A DNA stretch of 52,063 bases from Bacteroidota bacterium (lineage in GTDB: Bacteria; Bacteroidota; Bacteroidia; AKYH767-A; OLB10): positions 1-52,063 of the forward strand of contig JANXSD010000064.1 of the NCBI GenBank assembly GCA_025352785.1, in the 5' to 3' direction. The notes below the pieces were generated by a model that saw nothing but the letters and a program-made list of their open reading frames with translations, did not search any database and was not told the DNA's origin. Position 1 is the first letter of the stretch; every line of letters starts with the position of its first letter. Positions 10,500 to 52,062 of this stretch are shown here, one piece after another. A program made the translations under genes and the position numbers.

Positions 10500-13400
10500 A
10501 TGAAGGCAGCTACCAGTACTCTTGAAGATTTGTTATCCCCTTTGAGGCAATATTTTCTTAAAGACACCTTCGTGCGTAGTGATATCAACAACGCACCTCC
10601 ATTAAGAGCGGAGCTTTTAACCATTGAGCAAATGGGATTTCTTGCCAAAGACCTTGCAAAAAGACATGAGATAAATAAGAAAAAAACTCCCGAATTTTTA
10701 TTAAAAAGATTGGCTGATAACGAAGAAGTATTGATTCGTGTAACCGATCTTTTACAGGATGCCGTAAAAGAAAAAAATCCAATTGCTCCCGCAGGTGAAT
10801 GGCTGCTTGATAATTTTTATTTGATTGAAGAACAGATAATGATTGCAAAAAGGCATTTTCCAAAAGGATACAGTAAAGGACTTCCCAAACTTGGATCTAA
10901 AAACGGACCTTCAGAAGGTTTTCCACGTGTGTATGATATTGCAATAGAAATAATTTCGCATAGCGATGGGCATTTAGACATTCATACGCTTAATCGTTTT
11001 ATTGAGGATTATCAAAAGATAAGTGAACTCACATTAGGTGAATTGTGGGCAATACCGATTATGCTGAGGATTTCATTAATTGAAAATCTCAGACGTGTTG
11101 CAGCAAGAATTGCGATTGACCGTATTGATGCTAACCTTGCTCAGTATTGGGCTGACCGGATAATTAAAACTGCTGAAAAATATCCAAAGAATCTTGTGTT
11201 AACAATGGCCGATCTCGCCAGAACTGACCCTCCCATGGTAAGCGCTTTTATTGCGGAGTATTCAAGAAAACTTCAGTGGAAAGGATTTAATGTAACCCTA
11301 CCTATATCCTGGCTAGAACAACATCTGAACGAAACTGGTGACACTATTAATGAAATGGTGCTTGCCGAAAATCAAAAACAGGCTGCCGACCAAGTTTCGA
11401 TGACAAACAGTATAAACAGTTTGCGTTTTCTAGTAAAAACAGATTGGCGCGACTTTGTGGAAGCAATGAGTCATGTGGAGCATACTTTAAGAAATGATGC
11501 AGAACTCGTTTATGCAAAAATGGATTTTCATACACGCGACCATTACAGACATGCAATTGAAAAGATTGCTAAAGATGGTAAGCTTAAAGAAAATGATGTT
11601 GCCAAAATTGTTATTGGACTCGCAAAGGAAAATATAGAAAAAAACAGTATAGATAAACATACATGGCATGTAGGTTATTATTTAATTGGGGATGGCTTAC
11701 CAATCACTGAAAAGATTTTAAAAACGCAATTATCCGTATTGCAATCTCTCAGGCAGTTTTCTTTTCGCAATGCGCATAAATTATATGTATTCTCCGCTTT
11801 ACTCCTTACTACTATTATAAGTGCGTTCCTTATTTTAAAAGCACATAACGATGAATTAAGAATAGGCATATTTGTTTCTATCTCTGTCTTAAGCCTTTTA
11901 GCGGCAAGTAATTTTGCAATAGCCATTATTAACTGGATAGCAACATTAAGGATTGGCCCCAAGCCATTACCTAAAATGGATTTTTCAACAGGTATTCCGA
12001 AAGACTCGTGTACGATAGTTGTTATTCCTGCAATGATAACAAGCATAAGCCAGGTAAATAAACTGGTAGAAGATCTTGAGGTAAGATTTCTCGCTAACCG
12101 TGATCCTAATTTATTCTTTGGACTTTTAACTGATGTAAAGGACGCAACACAAGAAGTTTTACCTGATGATGAAATTATAGTTACACATACTAAACAAAAA
12201 ATAATTGAGCTGAATATAAAATACCGTAAGCATTCAAATGACATCTTTTTTCTTTTTCATCGCCCACGCAGATGGAATCCTGTGGACAAAAAATGGATGG
12301 GCTACGAACGCAAGCGCGGAAAGCTTGGTGAGTTGAACAGCTTGCTTCGTGGCGGAGCGAAAAATTGTTTTTCAATCATAGTAGGTAATGAGAAAGTTTA
12401 TCGTGCTGTAAAATATGTAATCACATTAGATACCGATACGCAACTTCCACGGGGTGCTGCATGGAAATTAATTGGCTTGATGGCTCACCCGCTCAATCTT
12501 CCTGTTTATGACGAGAAGAAAAAAAGAATTGTAAAAGGATATGGAATTATACAACCACGCATAGCAATAAGTTTACAAGGATCAAAGCGCTCGCTTTATA
12601 CACGTATGCATGAGAATGATTCAGGCATTGATCCTTATACAAGACTAACTTCTGACTTATACCATGATATATTTAGCGAAGGATCATTTATTGGTAAAGG
12701 AATCTATGAAGTTGACACATTTGAAAAAGTATTGAATAACCGCTTTCCGGAAAACAGGATATTGAGTCATGATTTATTGGAAGGCAGTTATGTTCGATGC
12801 GGATTTGCAAGTGATGTATTGTTATATGAAGAGTATCCATCACAATACAGTACGGATAGCAGCAGGCGGCACAGGTGGATTAGGGGCGACTGGCAAATAG
12901 GAAACTGGTTTTTACCGTGGGTTCCTGATGCAAAAGGGAAGCTGCAAAGCAATGCCATTAGCGCATTATCGCGCTGGAAAATATTTGATAATTTAAGACG
13001 CAGCCTTATCCCTATTGCTTTTTTATTAATTCTTATTCTATGTTGGACAGTTTTACATTCATTATTTTTTTGGACACTTTTGATAATTGCTATCGTAATC
13101 ATTCCTTCGCTTAGCATATCCGTTTGGGATTTAATAAATAAACCAAAAGAGATTAGTCTTCTTCAACATTTTAAAAATGTTTTTCAAAATACTTTTACTA
13201 ACATTCTCCAGGCTTTATTCATGCTGGTGTGTTTGCCATTTGAAGCATACATAAGTATAGATGCAATTTTCAGAACCTTTTGGAGAATAATAATATCGCA
13301 TAAAAATATGCTTGAATGGAATCCATCAGGCTTTGCTAAAAAGAAGAATGAAAATTTATTTACTCTTTATGGGTCAATGTGGTTTGCGCCGTTCATAAGT

Positions 13401-16400
13401 GTAGTGCTGATTTTTCTTCTTATAAATTATTCCCCTTTAGCATTTTTTGAGGCAACTCCATTCCTGATTCTCTGGATATTATCTCCGGCAATAGTGTATT
13501 GGGTGAGTCGTCCGCGCCCGGTTTTCAGAACAAAAATAACGGATGATCAAAGAAAATATCTTAGAGAATTATCAAGAAAAACATGGTCATTTTTTGAAAC
13601 ACATGTCAATGAAGAAAATAATTGGTTACCGATTGACAATCTACAGCAGTATCCCATAACGATTATCGCACACCGTACTTCTCCTACTAATATTGGTTTG
13701 TCATTACTTGCAAATGTTGCAGCCACTGACTTTGGATATATTTCGATTGCGCAGTTACTTAATCGCACATCTAAAACTTTTCAAACGCTGAATAAACTCG
13801 AAAGATATTCAGGGCACTTTTTTAACTGGTATGACACGCAATCATTAGTACCGCTGCATCCCAAATATATTTCAACCGTTGACAGTGGAAATTTAGCAGG
13901 TCACTTACTTACACTGCGCCAAGGGCTTTTTGAAATCTTGAATCAAAAAATAATTAGAGAAAATCTGTGGGATGGCATTTTTGATACCATTAGAATAATT
14001 GCAAAGAAAATATCAGGAGAAGATCAAACATTGTTTAGTGATTTTCAATTTTTTTTTGAGACCGAAAAGTTATCTCGACCTGCCAATTTGAATGAATTAA
14101 AAAACAGTCTTGAAAAAATTTATGTTCACCTAACTGAATTGTTAAATGAAATGAAATCCAGAAAGGCGGGGCTGAATAATGATAAATTAAATTCAAATGC
14201 GGAAGTGTTTGAATGGTTGAATTTATTGGAGAAACAAATGAATGATTGTCTTCAGGAGATTAAACTATTGAGCCCATGGACAAAATATAATTCAGTGCCT
14301 GAAAAATTCACAGGCTTAAAAATTTTTCAAAAAAATCTTTCATTGAAAGAACTTGCACGAATGGATATTGACTTGCGTGAAGAGTTAGCATCTTTCCACA
14401 GCAAAGACAAAACTAATGAAGAGCATCAATGGCTTTCTGATTTTGAACTATCAATTAATGCAGCAAGCGTTTTAGCAAAAGAACGTATTTCCGTTATTCA
14501 TGAGCTTGCTTCGCAATGTTCAGACTTTGCGAATATGGAGTATAATTTTCTTTATGATAAAACGCAACATTTACTTGCTATAGGTTATAACGCTGATGAA
14601 GATCATCGCGATAGCGGATACTACGATTTACTTGCTTCTGAAGCACGCTTAGGTTTATTTGTTGCTATTGCACATGGAAAAATTTCGCAGGATAGTTGGT
14701 TTTCTCTGGGACGAAGGCTTACTATCGCTGATAGCACTCAGGTGTTAATTTCATGGAGTGGTTCTATGTTTGAATACCTCATGCCTAATCTAGTGATGCC
14801 GCTTTATGAAAACACCTTGTTGGATAATAGCTGCAAAGGGGCTGTAAAAAAACATATCGAATATGGCAGGGAGCAAGGCGTACCATGGGGCATTTCAGAA
14901 TCATGTTACAATATGGTGGATGCACATCTTAGTTATCAGTATCGTGCATTTGGTGTTCCTGAATTGGGTTTCAAACGCGGGCTTGGTCTTGATCTTGTTA
15001 TTGCTCCTTATGCATCTGTGATGGCGCTCATGATTGATCCCGCTGCTGCATGCAGGAATCTTGAGAAATTAACTGCAAGTGGATATGAAGGTAGATATGG
15101 ATTTTTTGAATCAGTTGATTATACTCCATCACGATTACCACGAGCTAAAACACCTGCTTTGATCCAATCTTTTATGGCACATCACCACGGAATGAGTTTG
15201 CTTTCACTCGATTTCCTGCTCTGCGATCAGCCAATGCAAAAACGTTTTGAATCTGATGAAAATTTACAGACTGCACTTTTATTGCTGCAGGAAAGAGTTC
15301 CCAAAGCAACAGGTTTCTATACTCCTACTTTGGGTACTGAAGAAATAATTCACACTGTTCTAAATTCAGATATGCGTGTTATTAATTCTCCTAACACATT
15401 CCAACCTGAAATTCAATTGCTTTCCAATGGTACTTTTCATGTAATGGTTACTAACGCAGGCGGAGGTTACAGCCGGTGGAGAGATGTTGCACTCACAAGA
15501 TGGAAAGAAGATACCACTTGCGACAACTGGGGATCTTTTTGTTATATCCGTGATCGCCATGCGGGTGAATTCTGGTCAACAACACATCAGCCAACATTAA
15601 AAGAAACTTCACATTATGAAGCTATATTTTCACAGGGTCGCATAGAATTTCGCAGAACAGATAATGAGATTGAATTGCATACTGAAATTGTTGTTTCTCC
15701 TGAAGATAATGTAGAAATAAGAAGAGTACATATCAAGAATCATTCACGCTCACCACGAAGTATTGAAATTACAAGTTACGGTGAAGTGGTTATTGCAATA
15801 CCAATAAGTGATGAATCACATCCAGCATTCAGTAACTTATTTGTTCAGACAGAAATAATACCAAATCAACACACAATTTTATGTACCAGGCGTCCGCGTT
15901 CCAAAGATGAAACTCCGCCACACATGTTTCATTTAATGAAGCTTGCCAAGGGTGATGCTGATCATATTTCTTATGAAACGGATCGTGATAAATTTATCGG
16001 CAGGGGCAATAGCATTGTAAGTCCAAAAGCAATGCACCAGATAGAAGCGCTATCTAATTCGCAAGGTTCAGTCCTTGATCCGATCGTTTCTATTCAATAT
16101 AGAATAACAATTGATGAAGAGAAGACTTCGGTTATTGATATCGTTACAGGCATTGCTGAAAATCGAAGCGAATGTCAAAACTTAATAGACAAATATCAGG
16201 ATCGCAATTTCAGAAATCGTGCTTTCGAATTATCCTGGACCTACAGCGAAGTTGTTTTAAGGCAAATTAATGCAACAGAAGCTGATGCACAACTTTACGG
16301 ACGGTTAGCGAGTTCTGTTCTTTATATAAATCCTGCGCTGCGTGCTAACAAAGATGTAATAATTAAAAATTACAAGGGACAATCTTCATTATGGAGTTAT

Positions 16401-19232
16401 TCAATATCAGGGGATATACCTATTGTGTTGCTGCTGATTTCTGACAACACTAACATGGTGCTTTTAAAACAAATGTTGCAGGCGCGCGCTTACTGGCAGT
16501 TTAAAGGGCTGATAATTGATCTTGTTATTATCAACGAGGATTACAGTGGTTACCGGAATGATTTACAGGATCAGATTCAAAGTCTTATCACAGCAGGAAC
16601 AGGAAACAATCCGAAAGATAAACAGGGTGGAGTTTTTGTGCGAATGGCTGACCAGATTAGCAATGAAGACAAAATTTTAATTCAAACAGTTGCACGAGTG
16701 ATAATTTCAGATTCATTCGGAACGCTTGCGGATCAATTAGAAAGAAGATTTAATGTTACGCCTATTATTCCTTACCTAGTTCAAGGCAAACAACATGAAT
16801 CAGAAATTAAAAACACACCAGATAACCGTGGACTGCAATTTTATAATGGCATAGGCGGATTTTCTACAGATGGAACGGAGTATATAATTAACACATCTGA
16901 TAAAAAAATTACTCCGCTTCCATGGATAAATGTTTTAGCAAATCCAAACTTTGGAACGATAGCATCTGAAAGCGGAACTTCCTACACTTGGTCAGAAAAT
17001 GCACATGAATTCAGACTTACACCCTGGAACAATGATCCTGTTACCGGCAGTTGCGGTGAAGCATTTTATATTCGTGATGAAGAGAGCGGATATTATTGGT
17101 CGCCTATGCCATATCCTGCAAAAGGTAAATCAAACTATGTAACAAGACATGGATTTGGCTATAGTGTTTTTGAATGTGAAGAAGATGGAATTTATTCTGA
17201 GGCAACAATTTTTGTTGATCGCGATGCGCAGATAAAATTTACTTCAATAAAAATCAGCAACCGTTCAGATCGCGCAAGAACGCTTACGGTTACAGGATAT
17301 GTGGAATGGGTGCTTGACAGCTTGCGCACTAAATCAGCTATGCACATTGTAACTGAATTTAATGCTGAACAACGTACACTCATCACGCGCAATCCTTACA
17401 ATTCAGAATTTCCTAGCCGCGTGGCTTTTTTTGATGTGGATAATATCAAATACAATTTCACAACAGACCGAAATGAATTTATAGGACGTAACAGAACACT
17501 TCAAAAACCTGATGCCATGAAGCGATTGCGTCTTGCCGGAAAACATGGTGCCGGACTCGATCCATGCACTGCTATTCAACTTCCAGTTATGCTACTGGTT
17601 GATGAAGAACGAGAACTGGTTTTTAAAATGGGAGCAGCTCCAGACCTGGAACATGCATACCAATTGATCAATCGTTTTCGAAATAAAAATGCTGTTAAAG
17701 ATTCGCTAAAAAATGTTCGTGATTACTGGCAACAAACATTAGGTGCCGTGCAAATAAAAACGCCTGATCAATCACTTAATATTTTATCTAATGGCTGGTT
17801 GCTTTACCAGTTAATTGTTTGTAGGCTTTGGGGACGAAGCGGATTCTATCAATCAGGCGGAGCCTTCGGATTCAGAGATCAGTTGCAGGATGTAATTGCA
17901 GTGATGCATGTACAACCTGACTTAACACGCGAACAAATTCTGTTGGCTGCATCACGACAATTTAAAGAAGGCGATGTGCAACATTGGTGGCATCCACCGC
18001 AAAACAGGGGTGTAAGAACACGATGCTCTGATGATCTTTTGTGGTTAGCATATACTACCTCTCATTATCTTAATTATACACATGACTATGGTGTATTAGA
18101 AAATCTTATTCCCTTTATTGAAGGTCGTTTGCTAAATGTACATGAAGAATCTTATTATGATCTTCCCATAATTTCTCAACAAAGAACCTCCTTGTATGAC
18201 CATTGCAAACGTGCTATTGTGAAAGCACTTCAGCTCGGTGTTCACGGGTTGCCCCTTATGGGATCAGGTGACTGGAATGATGGGATGAACATGGTGGGAA
18301 TTGAAGGTAAAGGTGAAAGTGTTTGGCTTGCATTTTTTCTTTATGATATTCTGAAACGATTTGAACCAATCGCGCAAAAAATGAATGACGAAGAATTTGT
18401 GAAATTATGCAGGAAACAATCTGAAGAGTTAAAACTTAATATTAATAAAACTTCATGGGATGGAGAGTGGTACAGACGCGCGTATTTTGATGACGGTGCT
18501 GTATTAGGTTCCGCAACCAACAGCGAATGTAAAATTGATTCAATATCACAAAGCTGGGCTGTATTATCAGGCGCTGGTGAATCAGAGCGCTCTTACAAAG
18601 CGATGGAATCTGCTTACAAATATTTAGTAGACAAAAAACATTCTCTAATTAAACTTTTAGAACCACCTTTCAATAATTCTGACTTTGAACCCGGTTACAT
18701 TAAAGGATATGTACCCGGTGTTCGTGAGAATGGCGGACAATATTCACACGCTGCAATATGGATAGTAATGGCAGCTGCTAAATTGAATAATCATTCAAGA
18801 GCCTATGAATTATTAAATATGATCAACCCCATCAATCACGGTAAAACTGCTGAAGATGTTGCAGTATATAAAGCGGAACCTTATGTTATAGCAGCAGATG
18901 TTTATGGTGTGTCACCTCATGAAGGTCGTGGAGGATGGACGTGGTACACCGGTTCGTCAAGTTGGATGTACCAAGCGATCATCACATCCATACTGGGATT
19001 GACGCGCGAAGGAGAATCGCTGCAAATGAATCCTTGTGTTCCTGCAGAATGGAAATTATATGAAATTAATTATCGCTACAAAAAAACAAACTACCATATA
19101 ACAGTGCAATTAGTGGATGATAAAAATGAAAGCGGTGTTGTGATAGATGGTTATGCTCAATCAGAAAATAGTATTCAATTGGTGGACGATGAAGTTGAAC
19201 ATACGGTTATAGTTAAGGCTAAGATGGCTTGA
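10500..19232 (+). CDS. ndvB: Cyclic beta-1,2-glucan synthase (NdvB/ChvB/Cgs type)
   Basis: A 2910-residue inner-membrane enzyme with the full domain order of the family; proteobacterial Cgs/NdvB proteins are about 2800-2900 residues. The family polymerises UDP-glucose into beta-1,2-glucan, controls chain length and cyclises the product. Membrane segments are seen near 428-447, 453-480, 835-877, 901-921 and 960-1002. Between them is a GT84 glycosyltransferase domain with a DxD motif (ITLDTDTQLPRG, about 640) and an RxHRW motif (SSRRHRWIRGDWQ, about 786). A glycoamylase-like region (about 1330-1570) carries VPWGISESCYN and GFFESVDYTPSRLP. Two GH94 carbohydrate-binding regions follow (about 1600-1900 and 2100-2380), then a GH94 phosphorylase-like domain with GSGDWNDGMNMVG near 2587, which controls chain length in the Brucella enzyme. 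The gene is intact. No exporter (NdvA-like ABC) is in the window. Cyclic glucans serve osmo-adaptation and host interaction in Proteobacteria; the role here is unknown. Confidence 0.93.
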   Translation: MKAATSTLEDLLSPLRQYFLKDTFVRSDINNAPPLRAELLTIEQMGFLAKDLAKRHEINKKKTPEFLLKRLADNEEVLIRVTDLLQDAVKEKNPIAPAGEWLLDNFYLIEEQIMIAKRHFPKGYSKGLPKLGSKNGPSEGFPRVYDIAIEIISHSDGHLDIHTLNRFIEDYQKISELTLGELWAIPIMLRISLIENLRRVAARIAIDRIDANLAQYWADRIIKTAEKYPKNLVLTMADLARTDPPMVSAFIAEYSRKLQWKGFNVTLPISWLEQHLNETGDTINEMVLAENQKQAADQVSMTNSINSLRFLVKTDWRDFVEAMSHVEHTLRNDAELVYAKMDFHTRDHYRHAIEKIAKDGKLKENDVAKIVIGLAKENIEKNSIDKHTWHVGYYLIGDGLPITEKILKTQLSVLQSLRQFSFRNAHKLYVFSALLLTTIISAFLILKAHNDELRIGIFVSISVLSLLAASNFAIAIINWIATLRIGPKPLPKMDFSTGIPKDSCTIVVIPAMITSISQVNKLVEDLEVRFLANRDPNLFFGLLTDVKDATQEVLPDDEIIVTHTKQKIIELNIKYRKHSNDIFFLFHRPRRWNPVDKKWMGYERKRGKLGELNSLLRGGAKNCFSIIVGNEKVYRAVKYVITLDTDTQLPRGAAWKLIGLMAHPLNLPVYDEKKKRIVKGYGIIQPRIAISLQGSKRSLYTRMHENDSGIDPYTRLTSDLYHDIFSEGSFIGKGIYEVDTFEKVLNNRFPENRILSHDLLEGSYVRCGFASDVLLYEEYPSQYSTDSSRRHRWIRGDWQIGNWFLPWVPDAKGKLQSNAISALSRWKIFDNLRRSLIPIAFLLILILCWTVLHSLFFWTLLIIAIVIIPSLSISVWDLINKPKEISLLQHFKNVFQNTFTNILQALFMLVCLPFEAYISIDAIFRTFWRIIISHKNMLEWNPSGFAKKKNENLFTLYGSMWFAPFISVVLIFLLINYSPLAFFEATPFLILWILSPAIVYWVSRPRPVFRTKITDDQRKYLRELSRKTWSFFETHVNEENNWLPIDNLQQYPITIIAHRTSPTNIGLSLLANVAATDFGYISIAQLLNRTSKTFQTLNKLERYSGHFFNWYDTQSLVPLHPKYISTVDSGNLAGHLLTLRQGLFEILNQKIIRENLWDGIFDTIRIIAKKISGEDQTLFSDFQFFFETEKLSRPANLNELKNSLEKIYVHLTELLNEMKSRKAGLNNDKLNSNAEVFEWLNLLEKQMNDCLQEIKLLSPWTKYNSVPEKFTGLKIFQKNLSLKELARMDIDLREELASFHSKDKTNEEHQWLSDFELSINAASVLAKERISVIHELASQCSDFANMEYNFLYDKTQHLLAIGYNADEDHRDSGYYDLLASEARLGLFVAIAHGKISQDSWFSLGRRLTIADSTQVLISWSGSMFEYLMPNLVMPLYENTLLDNSCKGAVKKHIEYGREQGVPWGISESCYNMVDAHLSYQYRAFGVPELGFKRGLGLDLVIAPYASVMALMIDPAAACRNLEKLTASGYEGRYGFFESVDYTPSRLPRAKTPALIQSFMAHHHGMSLLSLDFLLCDQPMQKRFESDENLQTALLLLQERVPKATGFYTPTLGTEEIIHTVLNSDMRVINSPNTFQPEIQLLSNGTFHVMVTNAGGGYSRWRDVALTRWKEDTTCDNWGSFCYIRDRHAGEFWSTTHQPTLKETSHYEAIFSQGRIEFRRTDNEIELHTEIVVSPEDNVEIRRVHIKNHSRSPRSIEITSYGEVVIAIPISDESHPAFSNLFVQTEIIPNQHTILCTRRPRSKDETPPHMFHLMKLAKGDADHISYETDRDKFIGRGNSIVSPKAMHQIEALSNSQGSVLDPIVSIQYRITIDEEKTSVIDIVTGIAENRSECQNLIDKYQDRNFRNRAFELSWTYSEVVLRQINATEADAQLYGRLASSVLYINPALRANKDVIIKNYKGQSSLWSYSISGDIPIVLLLISDNTNMVLLKQMLQARAYWQFKGLIIDLVIINEDYSGYRNDLQDQIQSLITAGTGNNPKDKQGGVFVRMADQISNEDKILIQTVARVIISDSFGTLADQLERRFNVTPIIPYLVQGKQHESEIKNTPDNRGLQFYNGIGGFSTDGTEYIINTSDKKITPLPWINVLANPNFGTIASESGTSYTWSENAHEFRLTPWNNDPVTGSCGEAFYIRDEESGYYWSPMPYPAKGKSNYVTRHGFGYSVFECEEDGIYSEATIFVDRDAQIKFTSIKISNRSDRARTLTVTGYVEWVLDSLRTKSAMHIVTEFNAEQRTLITRNPYNSEFPSRVAFFDVDNIKYNFTTDRNEFIGRNRTLQKPDAMKRLRLAGKHGAGLDPCTAIQLPVMLLVDEERELVFKMGAAPDLEHAYQLINRFRNKNAVKDSLKNVRDYWQQTLGAVQIKTPDQSLNILSNGWLLYQLIVCRLWGRSGFYQSGGAFGFRDQLQDVIAVMHVQPDLTREQILLAASRQFKEGDVQHWWHPPQNRGVRTRCSDDLLWLAYTTSHYLNYTHDYGVLENLIPFIEGRLLNVHEESYYDLPIISQQRTSLYDHCKRAIVKALQLGVHGLPLMGSGDWNDGMNMVGIEGKGESVWLAFFLYDILKRFEPIAQKMNDEEFVKLCRKQSEELKLNINKTSWDGEWYRRAYFDDGAVLGSATNSECKIDSISQSWAVLSGAGESERSYKAMESAYKYLVDKKHSLIKLLEPPFNNSDFEPGYIKGYVPGVRENGGQYSHAAIWIVMAAAKLNNHSRAYELLNMINPINHGKTAEDVAVYKAEPYVIAADVYGVSPHEGRGGWTWYTGSSSWMYQAIITSILGLTREGESLQMNPCVPAEWKLYEINYRYKKTNYHITVQLVDDKNESGVVIDGYAQSENSIQLVDDEVEHTVIVKAKMA

Positions 19233-37345: not shown

Positions 37346-37497
37346 TTTATTTATGGTTTGATAATTTCAATGTTAAATGACTTGCTAAGAAAAGTATCGT
37401 TTTAAATAGTTACTCGATTCAATCTAATAATTGATCGACTTCTCAATTTTTGTTAGCATTACAAAGGTTTTAGCTTTTTTGCTTCTTGTAAATACCT

Positions 37498-37533
37498 AAT
37501 TTGTAGTAGTGCACTACTCAATTTGTAGTAGTG
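37498..37533. promoter_or_regulatory. Candidate operator: direct repeats two helical turns apart
   Basis: AATTTGTAGTAGTG occurs at 37498-37511 and again at 37520-37533, 22 bases start to start. Between and across them, GTAGTAGTG and CACTACT make palindromes (AGTAGTGCACTACT at 37505-37518). This is the only such pattern in the 277-bp space between the giant T9SS gene (minus) and the TPR kinase gene (plus). The geometry suits a dimeric regulator such as a NarL-type protein, which is encoded just downstream. Confidence 0.5.
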
Positions 37534-37622
37534 ATTTTGAAGTATGAAAAAATTATTGGATATTTATACTAATTAAGAAAGTAAACTTTATCGCAAATAA
37601 AATAAGGGAGAACCCTGATGTT

Positions 37623-39551
37623 ATGCATTTAAAAAATACGCTAAGAATAGTATTGCTGTTATTAGGAATTGGAACATTATCTGTTAAAACGAATGCTCAA
37701 ACACATCAGGTTGATAGTCTTCGGAATAAACTAATACTTAATCCTCCCGATAAAGAGAAACACACTATTTTATTAGCTCTTTGTGGACAATATTTTTCGC
37801 TTTCATCGGATAGTTTATTGCACTACATTGAATTAGGAAAAAAAATTATTTTTAAGGGCACTGAAGAAGATTATCGAATGCAACTTTTCTACTGCAGTTA
37901 TTTATCAAAAAATGGAGAAACAGAAAAAACTATAGCAATTGCAGACAGTTTATTAAAGGAAAGTAATCATTTAAAATCACCTCAAAAAATACAAATACAA
38001 ATTCGATTTATTCGTTGCAGTGCTTTGATCAGAAACAACCAAAGTAAAGAAGCTATTGAACTAGCCTATTTAATACTTCAAGATGCTGAATCAATTAAAG
38101 ATACTTTATCGGTAATTAAAGCGTATACTTTATTAGGTTGGGCGAATATGGAAATTGGGCAATATGAAGATGCTATTAGATTTTTAAACAGAGGATATCA
38201 CTACAGCACTAATGAAAATATTATAGGATTTGGATCGAACTTATTTAACAATCTCGCATCTAGTTATGGAAATGTAAATAAATATGATTCTGCTTTTTAT
38301 TTTATTGCTTTAGGATTGAAATCCAGTCGTGAAAAGGAAAACTTAACAAGTTTAGCAAATGCACTAAACATTCAGGCAGATTTATATCTTAAAAAAGAAA
38401 AATTTGCTTTAGCAGAGAAAGATTTAAAAGAAGCATTGGAAGTTAGAAAAAAAATTGGCGATATACTCTATTTAGTTGCTGATATGGCGCAGCTTTCATC
38501 ATTTTATGCTTATATCAATCAGCCTGAGAAAGGAATAGAGGTAGCTAGAAATGGAATTGTATTAGCGAAACAAATCAACAATACCTCAAAATTAATTTAT
38601 CTGTATTCCGCTTTAGCTGAAAACCTAAAAAAGACGAATAGAATAAGAGAATATGCCAATTCTTTAGACACCATTATAAATTTAAAAGATACGTTGTATC
38701 GAAACAATTCAGAGGAAGCAATAGCTAGGATAGGAGCAAAATTTGAATTGCAAAAAAAAGAAAATATAATTATTAGGCAAGAATACGAATTAACACGAAG
38801 CAGATATTTTCGAATAGGCACTGTTATCTTTTTTATATTAAGTGCCATGTTAATTCTTCTCCTGTATCGAAATTATCAGTTAGTACAAAAAAGAAAATTA
38901 GAAGCAATAATGGCGGAACAAAAGAAACTTTCTGTTGAAGCAATCATAGTTGCAGAAGAAAACGAACGAAAAAGAATTGCCGCAGATTTGCATGACAACT
39001 TAGGATCTTATGCTGCTGCCATAACTTCCAATGTGAAATATTTAAAGGAGGGGATTTTAAATAAAGAAGCAATCATTACTCAACTTGATGAAAATGCTCG
39101 AAGTATGGTTACTCAATTAAGTGACACTATTTGGGTTCTTAAAAATGAGAATTTACTTTTCACACAGCTTGCCGATCGTTATAAAGTTTGGATGCTTCGT
39201 CTAATGCAAAATTATCCAGATATAAAATATAATTATTCAGAGAACATTGCGGAAGATGTAGAATTCGCACCGTCGAAAATCTTAAATATTTTTCTTATAC
39301 TTAAAGAATGTATTAACAATGTATTAAAACATAGCAACAGTACAGATGTGATTATTACGTTTACTAGTGATAAAACTTGGCAAATTGTAATTGAAGATAA
39401 CGGCATTGGTTTCGACTTCGATAAAACAAAAAAAGGTAATGGGATGGAAAATATTATGGATCGTGCTCATGCCTCTGGATGGAATGTTGAGTGGCGCTCC
39501 GTTGTCCCACATGGAACTTGTGTATTTATTTCTGGTAATACTACAAAGTAA
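37623..39551 (+). CDS. TPR-containing sensor histidine kinase (HisKA_3 / NarX-like)
   Basis: A 642-residue kinase. It has a Sec signal peptide ending near NAQ (residue 26) and a periplasmic region of five or six tetratricopeptide repeats (about 30-385), for example LLGWANMEIGQYEDAIRFLNRGY. One membrane helix follows (about 394-414) and then a short coiled coil. The dimerisation/phospho-acceptor segment AEENERKRIAADLHDNLGSY has the HisKA_3 signature LHDxLG (His near 455), and the HATPase domain shows KECINNVLKHS (about 560), IEDNGIGFDF (about 589) and GNGMENI (about 605). The frame starts at ATG 37623; an ATG five bases upstream is out of frame. It is transcribed with the NarL-type regulator 54 bp downstream, its expected partner. 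The periplasmic TPRs suggest it senses a protein or peptide. Confidence 0.9.
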   Translation: MHLKNTLRIVLLLLGIGTLSVKTNAQTHQVDSLRNKLILNPPDKEKHTILLALCGQYFSLSSDSLLHYIELGKKIIFKGTEEDYRMQLFYCSYLSKNGETEKTIAIADSLLKESNHLKSPQKIQIQIRFIRCSALIRNNQSKEAIELAYLILQDAESIKDTLSVIKAYTLLGWANMEIGQYEDAIRFLNRGYHYSTNENIIGFGSNLFNNLASSYGNVNKYDSAFYFIALGLKSSREKENLTSLANALNIQADLYLKKEKFALAEKDLKEALEVRKKIGDILYLVADMAQLSSFYAYINQPEKGIEVARNGIVLAKQINNTSKLIYLYSALAENLKKTNRIREYANSLDTIINLKDTLYRNNSEEAIARIGAKFELQKKENIIIRQEYELTRSRYFRIGTVIFFILSAMLILLLYRNYQLVQKRKLEAIMAEQKKLSVEAIIVAEENERKRIAADLHDNLGSYAAAITSNVKYLKEGILNKEAIITQLDENARSMVTQLSDTIWVLKNENLLFTQLADRYKVWMLRLMQNYPDIKYNYSENIAEDVEFAPSKILNIFLILKECINNVLKHSNSTDVIITFTSDKTWQIVIEDNGIGFDFDKTKKGNGMENIMDRAHASGWNVEWRSVVPHGTCVFISGNTTK

Positions 39552-39605
39552 GTATTTTATCTGAAAATTAAACTGTTCACTTTTACATTATAAGTAATTT
39601 CAAAT

Positions 39606-40274
39606 ATGAAAATAGCCCTAGTTGATGATAATCCTATTAATCATAGGAGTTTTTTGCAAAAGGTAATTCCTTTTCCAGATTTGCAATTATCAGTAAGTGC
39701 TTTTAGTGGTCATGAATTCCTAGAGAAGCTGAAGGGATTACCACTGCATCAATTGCCACTCGTTGTTTTTATGGATATAGAAATGCCGGGATTGAATGGC
39801 ATTGATACCATTAAATTAGCAAAATCAATTTATCCTTCTATCTTTTTTGTGGTGCTTACTGTTTTTGAAGATGATGATACCATATTTGAAGCGATACAAG
39901 CAGGCGCATGTGGTTATCTGCTAAAGCATGAAAGTCATCTCAGCATACGCGAAGCAATTACAGAAATTTTAGAATATGGTGGAGCACCAATGAGTCCTGC
40001 CATTGCTAGAAAAACCTTGAAATTACTTGGACAAAGAAAAAATGAGGATACTCAAATAAACCCATCAATAATCGATACTTTAATATCAGAACGAGAAAAG
40101 GAAGTACTATTACATTTAGTGAACGGTTATGATGCCAAAAGAATTGCTGAGATTACCGAAATAAGTACACTAACAGTTCGAAAACATATTGCGAATATTT
40201 ACACTAAGTTGCATGTGAATTCGAAAGCTCAAATCATTTCGATGGCTCATAAAAACAATTGGATAAAAGGTTGA
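39606..40274 (+). CDS. NarL/FixJ-type response regulator with LuxR HTH
   Basis: A 222-residue transcription regulator. The receiver domain (1-125) has the acidic pair DD at 7-8, phospho-acceptor Asp57 in VVFMDIEMPG, Thr in VVLTVFED (about 84) and Lys in GYLLKHES (about 109). A LuxR-type helix-turn-helix occupies about 155-220 (SEREKEVLLHLVNGYDAKRI, then TVRKHIANIYTKL). It should be phosphorylated by the TPR kinase just upstream and bind DNA as a dimer. The repeat operator at 37498-37533, upstream of its own operon and of the divergent giant T9SS gene, is the obvious candidate target, though this is inference. No sigma-factor or further regulator gene is nearby. Confidence 0.92.
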   Translation: MKIALVDDNPINHRSFLQKVIPFPDLQLSVSAFSGHEFLEKLKGLPLHQLPLVVFMDIEMPGLNGIDTIKLAKSIYPSIFFVVLTVFEDDDTIFEAIQAGACGYLLKHESHLSIREAITEILEYGGAPMSPAIARKTLKLLGQRKNEDTQINPSIIDTLISEREKEVLLHLVNGYDAKRIAEITEISTLTVRKHIANIYTKLHVNSKAQIISMAHKNNWIKG

Positions 40275-46659: not shown

Positions 46660-49600
46660 TTAATGTGCGAAATCGTACGATGTAATTGTGCTGAATGTAA
46701 CAGGAACTTTACTCCATGTTTCAATGGCATTACGATGTTTAACAACAATATAATAGCTTCCATTTAAAATTGCAGAACTAAATGTTAGTTGCAACGATCC
46801 ATTCACCTTTAATACTTTAGTGTCAGTTTCAACTAAACCATTAGGAGAAACTGCATCATGTAGTTCTACAACAACGCTATCAACTTCTTGCATGAGTGGA
46901 TCTGTACTTATTCCTGCATTCACAAGTGCTGGTGTCATCGTTCCACCAGAAGTATAAAATCCTTGAATAAATAGTGTTAAATTCAATGTTACATTCGAAT
47001 TACATCCTTCGTCAATTTGTCCATTACAATTATCATCCACTCCGTTTCCACAAACTTCCGTAACGCCTGGATTGATTGCAAAAACAGCATCATTACAATC
47101 TGTATTATTTAAAGAGGTATGCAATGGTTGAACGCAATATAGTGTACCACTTGCTGATGATGATCCATAAGTATCATTATCAGCATCGGTGTAATATAAA
47201 GTTCCGCCAGTAATTGAAGGATCTGCATCATCAATAAGTCCATCGCAATCATCATCGACACCATTACAAACTTCTTGAGCTCCTGGATTTACTGCAAATG
47301 CTCCATCATTACAATCCGTATTATTTGTTGAGGTATGTAATGGTTGAAAACAAAACAATGCGCCTGTAGCACTACTCGCACCATAACTATCATTATCAGC
47401 ATCTGTGTAATAGGTTACTCTTCCAAGTACAGAAGGATCTGCGTCATCAATAAATCCATCACAATCATCATCAATGGTGTTACAAATTTCTTGGGCTCCT
47501 GGATTAATACCAAATGCACCATCATTACAATCCGTATGATTTAAAGAAGTATGTAATGGTTGAACACAATGTAAAGAACCCGGATCCACATTGGATCCAT
47601 AAGTATCATCATCACCATCTGCATAATATAAAATCGCTGTTTGAGTAAAGCCAACGGTATAGGAAGCTTGCGCCGAACAATTATTTAAATCAGTAACGGT
47701 TACCGTATAGTTACCTGGCATCAATCCATTTACTTGTGCAGTTTGTGCACCATTATTCCACAAATAAGTATAAGGGGATGTTCCACCAGATCCTCCAACT
47801 TTTAAAACTCCATCAGCAACATTCGAACAACTTGCGGATGTATTTGTTATCAGAGAAATTGCTAATGCTGTAGGTTGCGTAATAGCGCTACTAAAGTTTG
47901 CAGTACATCCATTACAAGAAGTAACAGTTAATGAGTACGTGTTCGGAGCCAGATTACTTATTGCAGATGTTGTTGCACCATTACTCCAACTATAGTTAAA
48001 TCCTGTAGTTGAATTTAGTAAACCATTGCCATTTACTGATGGTGTATTTCCTGCTATAAATCCCGTCATTAATACTGATGTAAATGTTCGTGGCGAAACA
48101 AAAGACCCTGTACCAGGATTAAAAGTTCCTGCAGCAGTTATCGCTAAATTTTCTGTTGCAGCATTTGCAACTACTGTACTTGTTGATTGAATTTTTCCTC
48201 CAGAATAAATATCATTTACTGGAAGTTGGTATCCTGCAGCACCTGCCGAAACAACTGCACTTCCTAAAGTAGTACCTACTAACCAAGCATCTATTGGAAC
48301 AGTAGAACTTGTAACTGTAGTTAAGTTTTGAGAGAATATTGCTACGCCATCCGCACTTGCACCACCGTTACCAACAACACCTCCAGCATTTAAAGTTCCA
48401 AAAACATCACCCCCTGTGGTTCCTGTATTAATAGCACGCAAACGATTAGTAGTAGGAGTCATTAAACTTCCACCTACATAATAAACCTGACCAGCTATCG
48501 CTGTACCAGTGGTGATATTAAATCCATACGTTGTTGCACCCCCCGCAACCCATCCTGCAGTAGTTCCGGTTCCATTATTTGCAAATACAACTGAGTAGGG
48601 AGTTGTTGCAAAATTAATATTTCTTGTTGCTAAAAGTTCAACGAATTCATTAGCATTATCATTTCCTAATGGATTAGGAACAAATCGTGAAATCACTAAT
48701 CCTGGTCCATTGGTACAGGCATTGGTTGCAGTAGTAGTTATCGCTCCATTTGATGCGCCAAAGCAAGAAACATTCGTTGTTGCTAAAGTAACTACAGGAA
48801 GCGCAGAAGCGACAAGTGTTTTATTTGCAGATTTCGAACATCCATTGGAATTGGTAACTGTTACTGTATATGTTCCTCCTGCGTTTACCGATATGGTTTG
48901 ACTTACTGCAGAAGTTGACCATAAATAAGAGCTATATCCTGCGCCAGCATCGAGTGTTGTATTGCTTCCAGTACAAACGCTAGATGAACCTGAAATGGTA
49001 ACTGTAGGTAGAGGATTTATAGTTACAGTAACTGTTGCAGAGTTGGTACATGATGCCGCACCTGTAATGGTTACAGTATATGTTCCAGCGGTAGTAACAT
49101 TTATTGTTTGTGTTAAAGCACCTGTTGACCATTGATAATTTGTATAACCACCATAAGCGATTCCAGTTCCAGCATCTAATGTTGTTGATCCACCAGCACA
49201 AAAACTGGTTGCTCCACTAATGATAACTGGAGGTAAAGGCGCAACTAAATTATTGTTATCATCACAATCAGTACCATTTAAAACATAACCGAAAGGAGGA
49301 GAACATGCAGAAATTGTTACATTACTATTTCCGTAACTATCAGCATCAAAATCTTGATAATATGTTAAAAATGTAAGGCCATCATCAATAGTACCATTAC
49401 AATTATCATCTATGTTATTACAAATTTCAGTAGCACCTGGATGTATTGCAGCACCTCCTGAAAGATTATCATTACAATCTAAATTATTAGTAACATATCC
49501 TGATGGTATTGTATTTATTGTGCTAGTAACAAAACTTGCTGGGTTTCCATAAGTATCACCATCTACATCAGCGAAGAATGTAAAGACTGTACATCCCTCA

Positions 49601-52062
49601 TCAATTGTTCCATTACAGTTATCATCAAATCCATTACACAATTCTGTAGCTCCTGGATTTACTGCCGCTACCTGATCATTACAATCTGTATTATTACTTA
49701 CGTATCCAAACGGCGCAGTACATGCTAGTGTTGTTGATGCATTGTTACCATAAGCATCATTATCAAAATCTTCGTAGAAAGTTAATTTAACACCTTCATC
49801 AATTAAACCGTCACAATCATCATCATACGTATTACAAACTTCAATAGCGGATGGATTAACTGCAGCATTAAAATCATCACAATCGGTAGAATTACTAATA
49901 TATCCAGCAACTCCAGCTGCGATGGAAGAGCAATAAACATTTGTATTCGTAACATCACCAAATCCATCACCATCAACATCCGCATAAAAAGTTGTTCCTG
50001 ATGTGAAAGTTATATTCGCTCCGTTATTAGTCCCTGTTATTGGAGGTGAAGAACTTATTACACGAATACGATATCCTGTTCCTACTGGTTGTCCCGGAGG
50101 AATTAAACCAGCAATAGTTGTTGAATTTGCAGAGGTGGCAACGGTTCCAATATTAATTGGCGAAGCAAAACTTCCGCTTGCATTTGATAATTGTGCTGTA
50201 AAAACATTGGTAGAATTATAGGGATATACAGATGGATTAAATGTAACAGTAACAGAAGTATTAAAATTCCCATCAACACAATAGGTTAAAGGCGAAATCG
50301 CATTTGTACTGATGGTATTTAATATCGGACAAACAAATGATGCATCCGTTGAACTTATTACAAGTGGTGTTGTTCCTCCTGTAGGATTAACTGTGTTTAC
50401 CGAACCTGTTGGCCAAGTACCATTCGCAGAGGTTGCAGAACAACCTTCCACAGCTGCAGTAGCAACGTTTCTTTGTTCGATACAACGAATTCCATTTGGT
50501 AATGCTACTGGAATGTAAGCACCCCATGAACCATTCACTCCATCAACAGGTGTTGCAGCGGGCGCTGTATACCATGTTGTGAAGTTTGTTGCAATACCAT
50601 CGTTCTCTAACCATGTTCCATAAATCGGACGACCCGTTGCAGCTGTATTATCGTAAAGGAAAACCATATTTTCTGGAGTTCCACTTGAGGTTCCTCTGAT
50701 TGCTTGCCCACCATTTACTCCAGTGGCAGGATTAATCATTATAAAAGTATTGGTTGTATGAACAGATTGAACTAAAGTTGTATCTCCTGCTCCATTATTT
50801 AATTGCACATAGAAATAATTTAATTTTCCTGCCGTGAATGTTGCATTGCCTGTTGGTGACATTGCAAACCATCCCGTATAACTTCCTGTTGCGCTTGTTA
50901 CTAATTCAGCATATCTTCCGGTAGCAACAAATTCATCACCACCCATTAAAGTTCCATTCACACCACCCATACTTTTAGTTGAAGTTTGTCCAACGATGTA
51001 GCCATTAGCCCCAGAAGAATTATTAATTGCAAAAAAGTTTCCTGCTGTTGTTCCGGTAGTAGTAGTTGTTAATTCTGAAGCTCCCGTAAAATATCGATAC
51101 GTCGAATTTGGAATTAAATTATTTAATGTTAATCGACAAACATATTGCAAACGATTTCCTGCTGTAGTTCCGTTTACTGCATACTGTGGAAGTATAACTT
51201 CAGCAACAGTTGGCATTGGAGAAATCAACAATGCACCACCCACTTTTGTTGGATCCGTTCCTGCAACTATTCCTTGTGAAAATTGCACAGTACTCGCTAA
51301 TGAATTTGATATAACATGAATGGTGCGTCCAACAACTGCGCTAGAAGAAACATCAATTGTCACTAAAACAAATCCTGTTGTGCCTACTAATATTGGTTGC
51401 GAAAATCCATTAAATGTTATTGTGCCTCCTGATGAAACAACTGCTTGCGCAGATCCTAATTGAACAGCACCAGCTAATGAACTACTTATATTATACCACA
51501 ACTTAAAACTACTCGCATCTAAATCAGAAGTTAAATAGGATCCTGCAGTTGTAATTGATAAACTTGTTAAATCAGTATTATTTGTTGTTGTCACTAATGA
51601 TATTTTGTAAAGTATAGCATTTGGTGTTGGAAAATTTACAATGCCATTTGTTAAACTTGTAACAGCAACAGTTACTGTTGGAGTAACTGCAGCAAATGAA
51701 TGCGTGTTACCTGCGGCAACAGGAAAACCAGTAGGAGTACCTACACTAAAATTAATATTTCCAGCGGGAGTTGCAGCGATATTAATATTTCGCGCTCCTG
51801 CATTGTAAGCAACATCAGCAGTTACTAAAATATATCTTGTTCCAATAGGAAATGATTGCGTTAAACCAGTAAGAGAAATATTTCCTCCAGATGCAACTAT
51901 TGCTTGTGATGTTCCAATTTGCGTAGCTCCTGCTAAATCGTTTGTAGCATTTATCCAGAATTTAAATCCATTTACTTGTAAGTCGCTAGTTAAATAAGTA
52001 CCTGCAGTAATAAATGTTAAACTATTTAAAGTTGCTGATGCATTTCCAACAACTACTTGTAC
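46660..52062 (-). CDS. Giant secreted repeat protein (MopE-like metal-binding, Ig-like, lamin-tail), 5' truncated by window edge
   Basis: The frame is open from the stop at 46660 to the right edge of the window (about 1800 residues seen). A GTG at 51594 is only an internal codon. N- to C-terminal the visible part has tandem repeats of about 155 residues (TAGTYLTSDL, FKLWYN, LAGA-Q-G--QA-V-SGG); a unique region; four MopE-like repeats (ADVDGDGFGD ... DCDD ... DDDCDGLIDE); two Ig-like modules (YQWSTGALTQTINV); a SprB-like segment and a lamin-tail-like region (VISRFVPNPLGNDNANEFVELL); another SprB module; and three more MopE repeats. The ending (NGSYYIVVKHRNAIETWSKVPVTF) usually precedes a longer C-terminal module in related proteins, but here the chain stops at SYDFAH with no recognisable T9SS domain. 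MopE-type repeats are acidic and Cys-rich and likely bind calcium or other metals. Confidence 0.85.
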   Translation of the reverse strand, partial: VQVVVGNASATLNSLTFITAGTYLTSDLQVNGFKFWINATNDLAGATQIGTSQAIVASGGNISLTGLTQSFPIGTRYILVTADVAYNAGARNINIAATPAGNINFSVGTPTGFPVAAGNTHSFAAVTPTVTVAVTSLTNGIVNFPTPNAILYKISLVTTTNNTDLTSLSITTAGSYLTSDLDASSFKLWYNISSSLAGAVQLGSAQAVVSSGGTITFNGFSQPILVGTTGFVLVTIDVSSSAVVGRTIHVISNSLASTVQFSQGIVAGTDPTKVGGALLISPMPTVAEVILPQYAVNGTTAGNRLQYVCRLTLNNLIPNSTYRYFTGASELTTTTTGTTAGNFFAINNSSGANGYIVGQTSTKSMGGVNGTLMGGDEFVATGRYAELVTSATGSYTGWFAMSPTGNATFTAGKLNYFYVQLNNGAGDTTLVQSVHTTNTFIMINPATGVNGGQAIRGTSSGTPENMVFLYDNTAATGRPIYGTWLENDGIATNFTTWYTAPAATPVDGVNGSWGAYIPVALPNGIRCIEQRNVATAAVEGCSATSANGTWPTGSVNTVNPTGGTTPLVISSTDASFVCPILNTISTNAISPLTYCVDGNFNTSVTVTFNPSVYPYNSTNVFTAQLSNASGSFASPINIGTVATSANSTTIAGLIPPGQPVGTGYRIRVISSSPPITGTNNGANITFTSGTTFYADVDGDGFGDVTNTNVYCSSIAAGVAGYISNSTDCDDFNAAVNPSAIEVCNTYDDDCDGLIDEGVKLTFYEDFDNDAYGNNASTTLACTAPFGYVSNNTDCNDQVAAVNPGATELCNGFDDNCNGTIDEGCTVFTFFADVDGDTYGNPASFVTSTINTIPSGYVTNNLDCNDNLSGGAAIHPGATEICNNIDDNCNGTIDDGLTFLTYYQDFDADSYGNSNVTISACSPPFGYVLNGTDCDDNNNLVAPLPPVIISGATSFCAGGSTTLDAGTGIAYGGYTNYQWSTGALTQTINVTTAGTYTVTITGAASCTNSATVTVTINPLPTVTISGSSSVCTGSNTTLDAGAGYSSYLWSTSAVSQTISVNAGGTYTVTVTNSNGCSKSANKTLVASALPVVTLATTNVSCFGASNGAITTTATNACTNGPGLVISRFVPNPLGNDNANEFVELLATRNINFATTPYSVVFANNGTGTTAGWVAGGATTYGFNITTGTAIAGQVYYVGGSLMTPTTNRLRAINTGTTGGDVFGTLNAGGVVGNGGASADGVAIFSQNLTTVTSSTVPIDAWLVGTTLGSAVVSAGAAGYQLPVNDIYSGGKIQSTSTVVANAATENLAITAAGTFNPGTGSFVSPRTFTSVLMTGFIAGNTPSVNGNGLLNSTTGFNYSWSNGATTSAISNLAPNTYSLTVTSCNGCTANFSSAITQPTALAISLITNTSASCSNVADGVLKVGGSGGTSPYTYLWNNGAQTAQVNGLMPGNYTVTVTDLNNCSAQASYTVGFTQTAILYYADGDDDTYGSNVDPGSLHCVQPLHTSLNHTDCNDGAFGINPGAQEICNTIDDDCDGFIDDADPSVLGRVTYYTDADNDSYGASSATGALFCFQPLHTSTNNTDCNDGAFAVNPGAQEVCNGVDDDCDGLIDDADPSITGGTLYYTDADNDTYGSSSASGTLYCVQPLHTSLNNTDCNDAVFAINPGVTEVCGNGVDDNCNGQIDEGCNSNVTLNLTLFIQGFYTSGGTMTPALVNAGISTDPLMQEVDSVVVELHDAVSPNGLVETDTKVLKVNGSLQLTFSSAILNGSYYIVVKHRNAIETWSKVPVTFSTITSYDFAH
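46990..47640. repeat. DNA-level tandem repeats encoding MopE-like motifs
   Basis: Three copies of about 230 bp, each with near-identical blocks such as CATCATTACAATC(C/T)GTAT and GTATG(C/T)AATGGTTGAA, recur at about 47085, 47310 and 47530. They encode the YTDADND-YG ... DCND ... PGAQEVCN--DDDCDG-ID units. A second, more diverged cluster of four units lies at about 49250-50000. Confidence 0.7.

Follow-up and report, generated by a model that had tools for sequence, protein, structure and literature searches.

Direct repeats between a T9SS surface-protein gene and a TPR kinase-NarL pair look like parts of conserved operators of a self-adjusting switch in Bacteroidota

The described system that is closest in design to the locus reported here is FimS-FimR of Porphyromonas gingivalis. 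It consists of a sensor kinase with periplasmic TPRs, of which eight are predicted, and a response regulator, and it positively controls a surface adhesive structure in a member of the Bacteroidota (PMC11053733, PMC5706477). FimR is described as working via the first gene of the fim cluster (PMC5706477/PMC11053733), and the signal of FimS is given as unknown (PMC11053733). In Escherichia coli, the preferred site of NarL is two inverted heptamers spaced by 2 bp (7-2-7), bound by a dimer, and 7-2-7 sites from which NarL activates transcription are centered at -40/-49 for napF and at -38/-47 for yeaR (PMC4549865). A further precedent is PorX-PorY/SigP, a case of two-component control tied to type IX secretion (PMC7712824). 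In the open-licence literature we found neither a regulator of this kind acting on individual T9SS cargo genes nor a description of the operator presented below.

The locus analyzed here has in common with FimS-FimR a predicted periplasmic TPR sensor with a partner regulator and the apparent control of a surface structure, and the FimS model aligns with the kinase of this locus over residues 159-597. The kinase scores 34.1 bits, however, against a FimS equivalog cut-off of 600, and whereas FimR acts through the first gene of its cluster, candidate sites are located here directly before the genes of the T9SS protein, the kinase, and the regulator. With NarX-NarL/NarP of E. coli the locus shares a GerE-type regulator, inverted heptamers spaced by 2 bp, and sites near -43 (PMC4549865). 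The heptamers are different, TACTCAA and TACTACA, the sensor carries TPRs instead of sensing nitrate, and the regulator, at 79.6 bits, stays below the NarL cut-off of 250. As in the case of PorX-PorY/SigP, two-component control appears tied to type IX secretion, but PorXY-SigP is described as regulating T9SS component proteins, whereas the predicted target here is an exported protein, and the regulator reaches 28.3 bits against a PorX cut-off of 300.

The window, by which we mean the whole stretch of 52,063 nucleotides that was analyzed, is part of a genome of 3.46 Mb. An earlier note, made from the sequence without database searches, had described a divergent gap of 277 bp, which we confirmed at 37346-37622 between the minus-strand ORF of 1529 aa and the plus-strand ORF of 642 aa. 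Its protein assignments also hold in Pfam, namely a Por_Secre_tail/GEVED/PPC protein, a TPR-HisKA_3 kinase, and a Response_reg-GerE regulator (Table 1). The 1529-aa protein has a signal peptide, PPC/EPN repeats, Ig-like and GEVED domains, and a T9SS type A C-terminal domain (Pfam, NCBIfam), with scores above cut-off for both PF18962 (88.7 bits) and TIGR04183 (69.4 bits). Two more very long ORFs are present in the window, at 10500-19232 (2910 aa) and at 46660-52062 (1800 aa, open at the window edge).

Based on Pfam and hydropathy, the kinase is composed of an N-terminal signal/TM segment, TPRs, a TM segment at about residues 396-414, and HisKA_3 and HATPase_c domains. HisKA_3 scores 25.3 bits (cut-off 24), and HATPase_c scores 25.2 bits, slightly below its cut-off of 26.4. 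In an AlphaFold2 model built from nine sequences (mean pLDDT 80.8, pTM 0.55), residues 28-359 are predicted to form a helical TPR superhelix, followed by a single long helix across the membrane, and the best Foldseek matches of the model are TPR proteins. This topology suggests that the TPR domain sits in the periplasm, between signal/TM1 and TM2. The regulator contains Response_reg (REC, 55.1 bits) and GerE (56.6 bits) domains, and its relatives with a solved structure include VraR and NarL. His457 of the kinase and Asp57 of the regulator are invariant in all nine aligned sequences. Kinase and regulator are a two-component system of the NarL/HisKA_3 class.

Table 1. Genes, candidate operator sites, and putative promoter elements at the locus (window coordinates)
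Feature	Position	Strand	Remarks
Secreted surface protein, 1529 aa	32756-37345	-	Pfam, NCBIfam
Putative -7 box, surface-protein promoter	37462-37469	-	AACCTTTG; score 5/6; 21 nt from site 1
Candidate operator site 1	37491-37510	+	AATACCTAATTTGTAGTAGT; 23.7 bits, matrix trained without the window
Candidate operator site 2	37513-37532	+	ACTACTCAATTTGTAGTAGT; 22.3 bits; 22 bp downstream of site 1
Putative -7 box, kinase promoter	37559-37566	+	GATATTTA; score 5/6; 26 nt from site 2
Sensor kinase, 642 aa	37623-39551	+	Pfam, hydropathy, alignment, predicted structure
Candidate operator site 3	39537-39556	-	AATACTTACTTTGTAGTATT; 24.0 bits; overlaps kinase stop codon
Putative -7 box, regulator's own promoter	39578-39585	+	CACTTTTA; score 5/6; 21 nt from site 3
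NarL/LuxR-family response regulator, 222 aa	39606-40274	+	Asp57; helix ISTLTVRKHIANIYT

The two exact 14-bp repeats AATTTGTAGTAGTG pointed out earlier are present in the gap at 37498-37511 and 37520-37533, 22 bp apart from start to start. The real unit is a dyad of 20 bp, AATACT-N8-AGTATT, and each 14-bp repeat is the right part of one such dyad. Its core, TACTCAA-TT-TGTAGTA, comprises two inverted heptamers with a 2-bp spacer, the layout of NarL sites, and site 2 as well as many orthologous sites consist of two inverted heptamers 2 bp apart. The perfect 14-bp palindrome AGTAGTGCACTACT in the gap is weaker evidence by itself, given that a palindrome of at least 14 bp occurred in 49 of 1000 shuffles. 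We identified a third copy of the dyad, absent from the earlier note, at the kinase/regulator junction (site 3). A weight matrix was derived from 17 sites at the loci of six relatives, excluding the window; apart from the three sites, the next-best scores in the window were at most 16.2 bits, close to shuffle level. In a matrix-free search for dyads common to gap and junction, the window only equalled its best shuffle (22.5), so that this search is not evidence for the window; 22 of 64 loci, including one distant locus (L098), beat all 20 shuffles.

It is hardly credible that the repeats are chance products or leftovers of a mobile element. Sites 2 and 3 do flank the kinase gene in opposite orientation, as would suit a mobile element, but none of five scanned window proteins is a transposase, dinucleotide shuffling of the gap yielded an exact 14-bp direct repeat in only 3 of 5000 trials, and the sites are conserved in many loci at matching places.

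Across the genome, the degenerate pattern AMTACYYAMTTTGTAGTAKT has three exact matches, all at this locus. When up to three mismatches were allowed, there were 17 matches (three of the inexact ones with 2 mismatches and eleven with 3) compared to 22 for the reversed control. The 14-bp repeat was discarded as a search unit in favor of the 20-bp dyad because it showed no enrichment, with 92 matches at up to two mismatches versus 96 for the reversed control. In this whole-genome search with AMTACYYAMTTTGTAGTAKT we found no other T9SS gene with the site, because the only exact matches are the three at the locus.

For a comparison across relatives, the kinase was searched in 100 relatives (mostly yielding paralog matches), in GTDB contigs (the best 80 of 412), and in 395 Bacteroidia genomes. 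The resulting set of 59 orthologous loci comprises the window, L014, L015, L016, L018, and L042-L095. Four loci that had turned up twice entered the count once, L096 was excluded as truncated, and a few genomes are represented by two loci. Upstream of the kinase, 29 of the 59 loci have a site that reaches 17 bits; such a site is present at the kinase/regulator junction in 26 loci and in both places in 21. Subtracting the six loci used for training gives 23, 21, and 16 of 53. In 25 of the 59 loci no site reaches 17 bits in either place, some of these loci being truncated or carrying variant sites. At seven more distant TPR-kinase loci (L097-L103, from the 25 loci L097-L121), no site in gap or junction reaches 14 bits; a 14.6-bit match at L100 is 2 kb off.

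The earlier note had stated that its proposal would fail if the repeats were not conserved in relatives that keep the gene order. In such relatives the dyad is conserved, and the tandem arrangement is not: the pair spaced by 22 bp is common to the window and only one other genome (that of L043, which is also the genome of L013). The kinase ortholog at L043 has an in-frame TGA near its N terminus, reflecting either a broken gene or an assembly error. The junction site begins 14 nt before the end of the kinase gene in 19 of 25 cases, with the stop codon inside the site. In the remaining six it is displaced, with a position past the stop codon in L043, L052, L072, and L079. The site is therefore kept as DNA, and not on account of the last residues of the kinase. 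L049 (3593-8267) has two tandem TPR kinase genes followed by one regulator gene, with a junction site (7530, minus strand) on the second only, and L127 (G310) has a strong kinase ortholog with no site in the fetched stretch and no adjoining VRKH-type regulator.

Promoters of Bacteroidota contain a -7 box of consensus TANNTTTG, with the first T at -12 (PMC6847099). We scored boxes as TANNTTT followed by G or A over six informative positions, a scoring chosen after viewing the same loci, and compared their distances from sites of at least 14 bits, leaving out the window, with 2000 rotations. Measured from the AATACT end of the site, matches peak at a distance of 21 nt both for boxes pointing towards the regulator (mean 4.21 of 6 over 28 sites, 0 of 2000 rotations) and for boxes pointing towards the divergent gene (mean 4.03 over 33 sites, 0 of 2000 rotations). 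Boxes pointing towards the kinase peak at 26 nt from the other end of the site (33 sites, mean 3.0, 7 of 2000 rotations). The seven minus-oriented gap sites had no shared -7 spacing, the best distance being 46 nt (22 of 2000 rotations).

The three putative boxes of the window (Table 1) all lack the first T, and an alternative kinase box, TATTTATA, at 28 nt from site 2, scores equal to GATATTTA. By arithmetic, these spacings center the sites near -43.5 for the surface protein and the regulator and near -48.5 for the kinase. A scan of the gap for E. coli sigma-70 promoters and terminators found nothing. One site is flanked on both sides by boxes scoring 5 to 6 in six of 20 one-site loci (L048, L050, L051, L056, L088, and L094). 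In five of seven two-site loci (L059, L064, L065, L095, and the window), the distal site goes with the box on the divergent side and the proximal site with the kinase box.

These positions bear on two alternatives. The regulator might bind the same sites and mainly repress, resulting in negative autoregulation with the surface protein shut off. At E. coli frdA, NarL acts as a repressor, and its sites there include a 7-2-7 site close to the start of transcription (PMC4549865); in addition, site 3 lies inside a transcribed gene. We consider repression unlikely, since the sites are just upstream of predicted -7 boxes, as at the NarL-activated napF and yeaR, and not over the start, and since activation is what has been described for FimS-FimR, the closest known system (PMC11053733, PMC5706477). 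Alternatively, the dyad could act as RNA, in an attenuator or stem-loop, consistent with its palindromic sequence and with the location of site 3 within the kinase transcript. This is very improbable, as the gap sites lie upstream of the predicted promoters and should thus not be transcribed from them, and the single Rfam match with E up to 1 scored far below the gathering score. From the position of the sites, we infer activation by the regulator.

A recognition helix of the regulator could be read at 52 loci. In the main class, xLT[VI]RKH, the canonical site is present in 31 of 34 loci. The exceptions are L044, where the site precedes a secreted-protein gene of the same gene row, L049, where it is at the junction of the second kinase and the regulator, and L074, which lacks its upstream end. 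The class PNTVKKH has TACTCCA-NN-TGGATA in five of seven loci, a site found in none of the other 52 loci, and the class xHT[VI]RKH has a TAACGCA-type site in three of five. Among loci with other helices, the canonical site is present in two of six (L072 and L076). The patterns for the variant sites were written after most of those loci had been viewed. Fisher values for the association of helix and site (1e-8, 8e-6, and 5e-4) are overstated because the helix classes are clades, and the covariation therefore corresponds to few evolutionary events.

The exact 18-bp site occurs in six of 395 Bacteroidia genomes, with none for the control. Exact sites in G193 and G397, both inside long open frames, were taken as chance and rejected as real sites. 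It is conceivable that a DNA-binding protein other than the adjoining regulator uses the dyad, given that some genomes have sites away from any kinase gene. This is improbable, because site and recognition helix of the adjoining regulator vary together, because the site recurs at the kinase/regulator junction in the 26 loci mentioned above, and because the exact 18-bp site is present in four of seven genomes with a kinase ortholog of more than 300 bits compared to two of 388 other Bacteroidia.

In many relatives, the site precedes genes of secreted or surface proteins as well as the kinase and regulator genes themselves. In all of the eight closest loci (L013-L020, 29-46% identity), the divergent partner has a signal-like start and an EPN-type motif. 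The T9SS domain was found on the four full-length close-relative partners that were scanned (L219, L222, L223, and L224), and the partial L225 scored below cut-off; one close-relative partner aligns with the 1529-aa protein of the window at 39% identity over 1113 positions. The partner at L220 is broken into a short frame. A site reaching 14 bits precedes the kinase in 28 loci. In 22 of these, a divergent ORF starts there, and 20 of the 22 ORFs carry a signal peptide or a lipobox according to a simple rule, that of L053 being a doubtful short ORF. Divergent partners are not all T9SS proteins: among ten scanned, one has the tail (L060), and the rest include two large lipoproteins, an efflux-type outer-membrane protein, a Fib_succ_major protein, a lipocalin-like protein, and three without family. 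Scans found no T9SS domain on the partner of L052 or on the giant protein of L228, which is followed by an RHS-repeat protein with the tail, and the partner of L227 has a CHU_C domain. In L044 and L081, the secreted-protein gene is upstream of the kinase in the same direction, and the site is before that gene.

We also searched a looser pattern in 30 genomes, which had been chosen for carrying the kinase and mostly also the site, and obtained 84 matches, known loci included, compared to 21 for the control. Nine exact matches were away from the selected kinase locus. Four of them precede genes of T9SS or giant secreted proteins (G004, G011, G437, and G441), two are at a second kinase/regulator junction, and the remaining ones are before a small putative lipoprotein, before an FHA-trypsin protein, and, in one case, without assignment. 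In G426, the operon divergent from the kinase is a homolog (48% and 51%) of the giant-protein operon found in G437 and G441. Sites before other T9SS genes, which the earlier note had proposed to look for, are thus found in some other genomes, and this genome contains no further exact match.

At L228, L230, and L231, a two-gene operon encoding a secreted protein of 2.9-3.0 kaa and a protein of 1.9 kaa has the site, whether it is beside the kinase or not; according to the scan of L228, the 1.9-kaa protein has RHS repeats and a T9SS tail. At L199 and L216, the site is about 115 bp upstream of the gene of an FHA-domain, trypsin-like protein, an unexpected common target. No clear target could be assigned to the sites at G441:C6 and L215, and a site at L218 is within a long open frame; all three were set aside. 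In the genome of the named isolate Terrimonas ferruginea DSM 30193, the site is present at two kinase loci, one of them with a regulator found beside it, and further sites precede envelope genes.

In conclusion, the locus looks like a self-adjusting switch for cell-surface proteins, in which the repeats would be part of conserved, likely landing sites for the adjoining regulator. That this DNA controls both the two-component genes and the divergent gene, as the earlier note suggested, is well supported by conservation, spacing, helix covariation, and other gene orders. The single site it envisaged is replaced by a pair of sites in the gap, each at the distance usual for one of the two promoters, and the third site at the kinase/regulator junction. 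Judging from sequence comparisons, this is probably a module under positive autoregulation that serves a T9SS-exported surface protein, and whose regulator would bind three sites and activate three promoters. The TPR kinase would phosphorylate the regulator, dimers of the phosphorylated regulator are predicted to bind sites 1-3, and the bound dimers, near -43.5 or -48.5 of Bacteroidota-type promoters, may activate the promoters of the surface protein, the kinase, and the regulator. Here we infer regulator binding, activation over repression, and the sensed signal.

A wider reading is tentative, and we think it rather unlikely to hold in full: a family of TPR-kinase/NarL systems across Chitinophagaceae and related Bacteroidota would be dedicated to genes of secreted and surface proteins, with an operator code that follows the recognition helix, and the kinase would monitor its own T9SS cargo in the periplasm, forming a feedback loop on surface display. 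The earlier note had likewise suggested that the system could sense the state of secreted repeat proteins. A defined operator with a fixed promoter spacing makes targets predictable from sequence. The operator also lends itself to a reporter with which to search for the signal, also in the isolate T. ferruginea DSM 30193.
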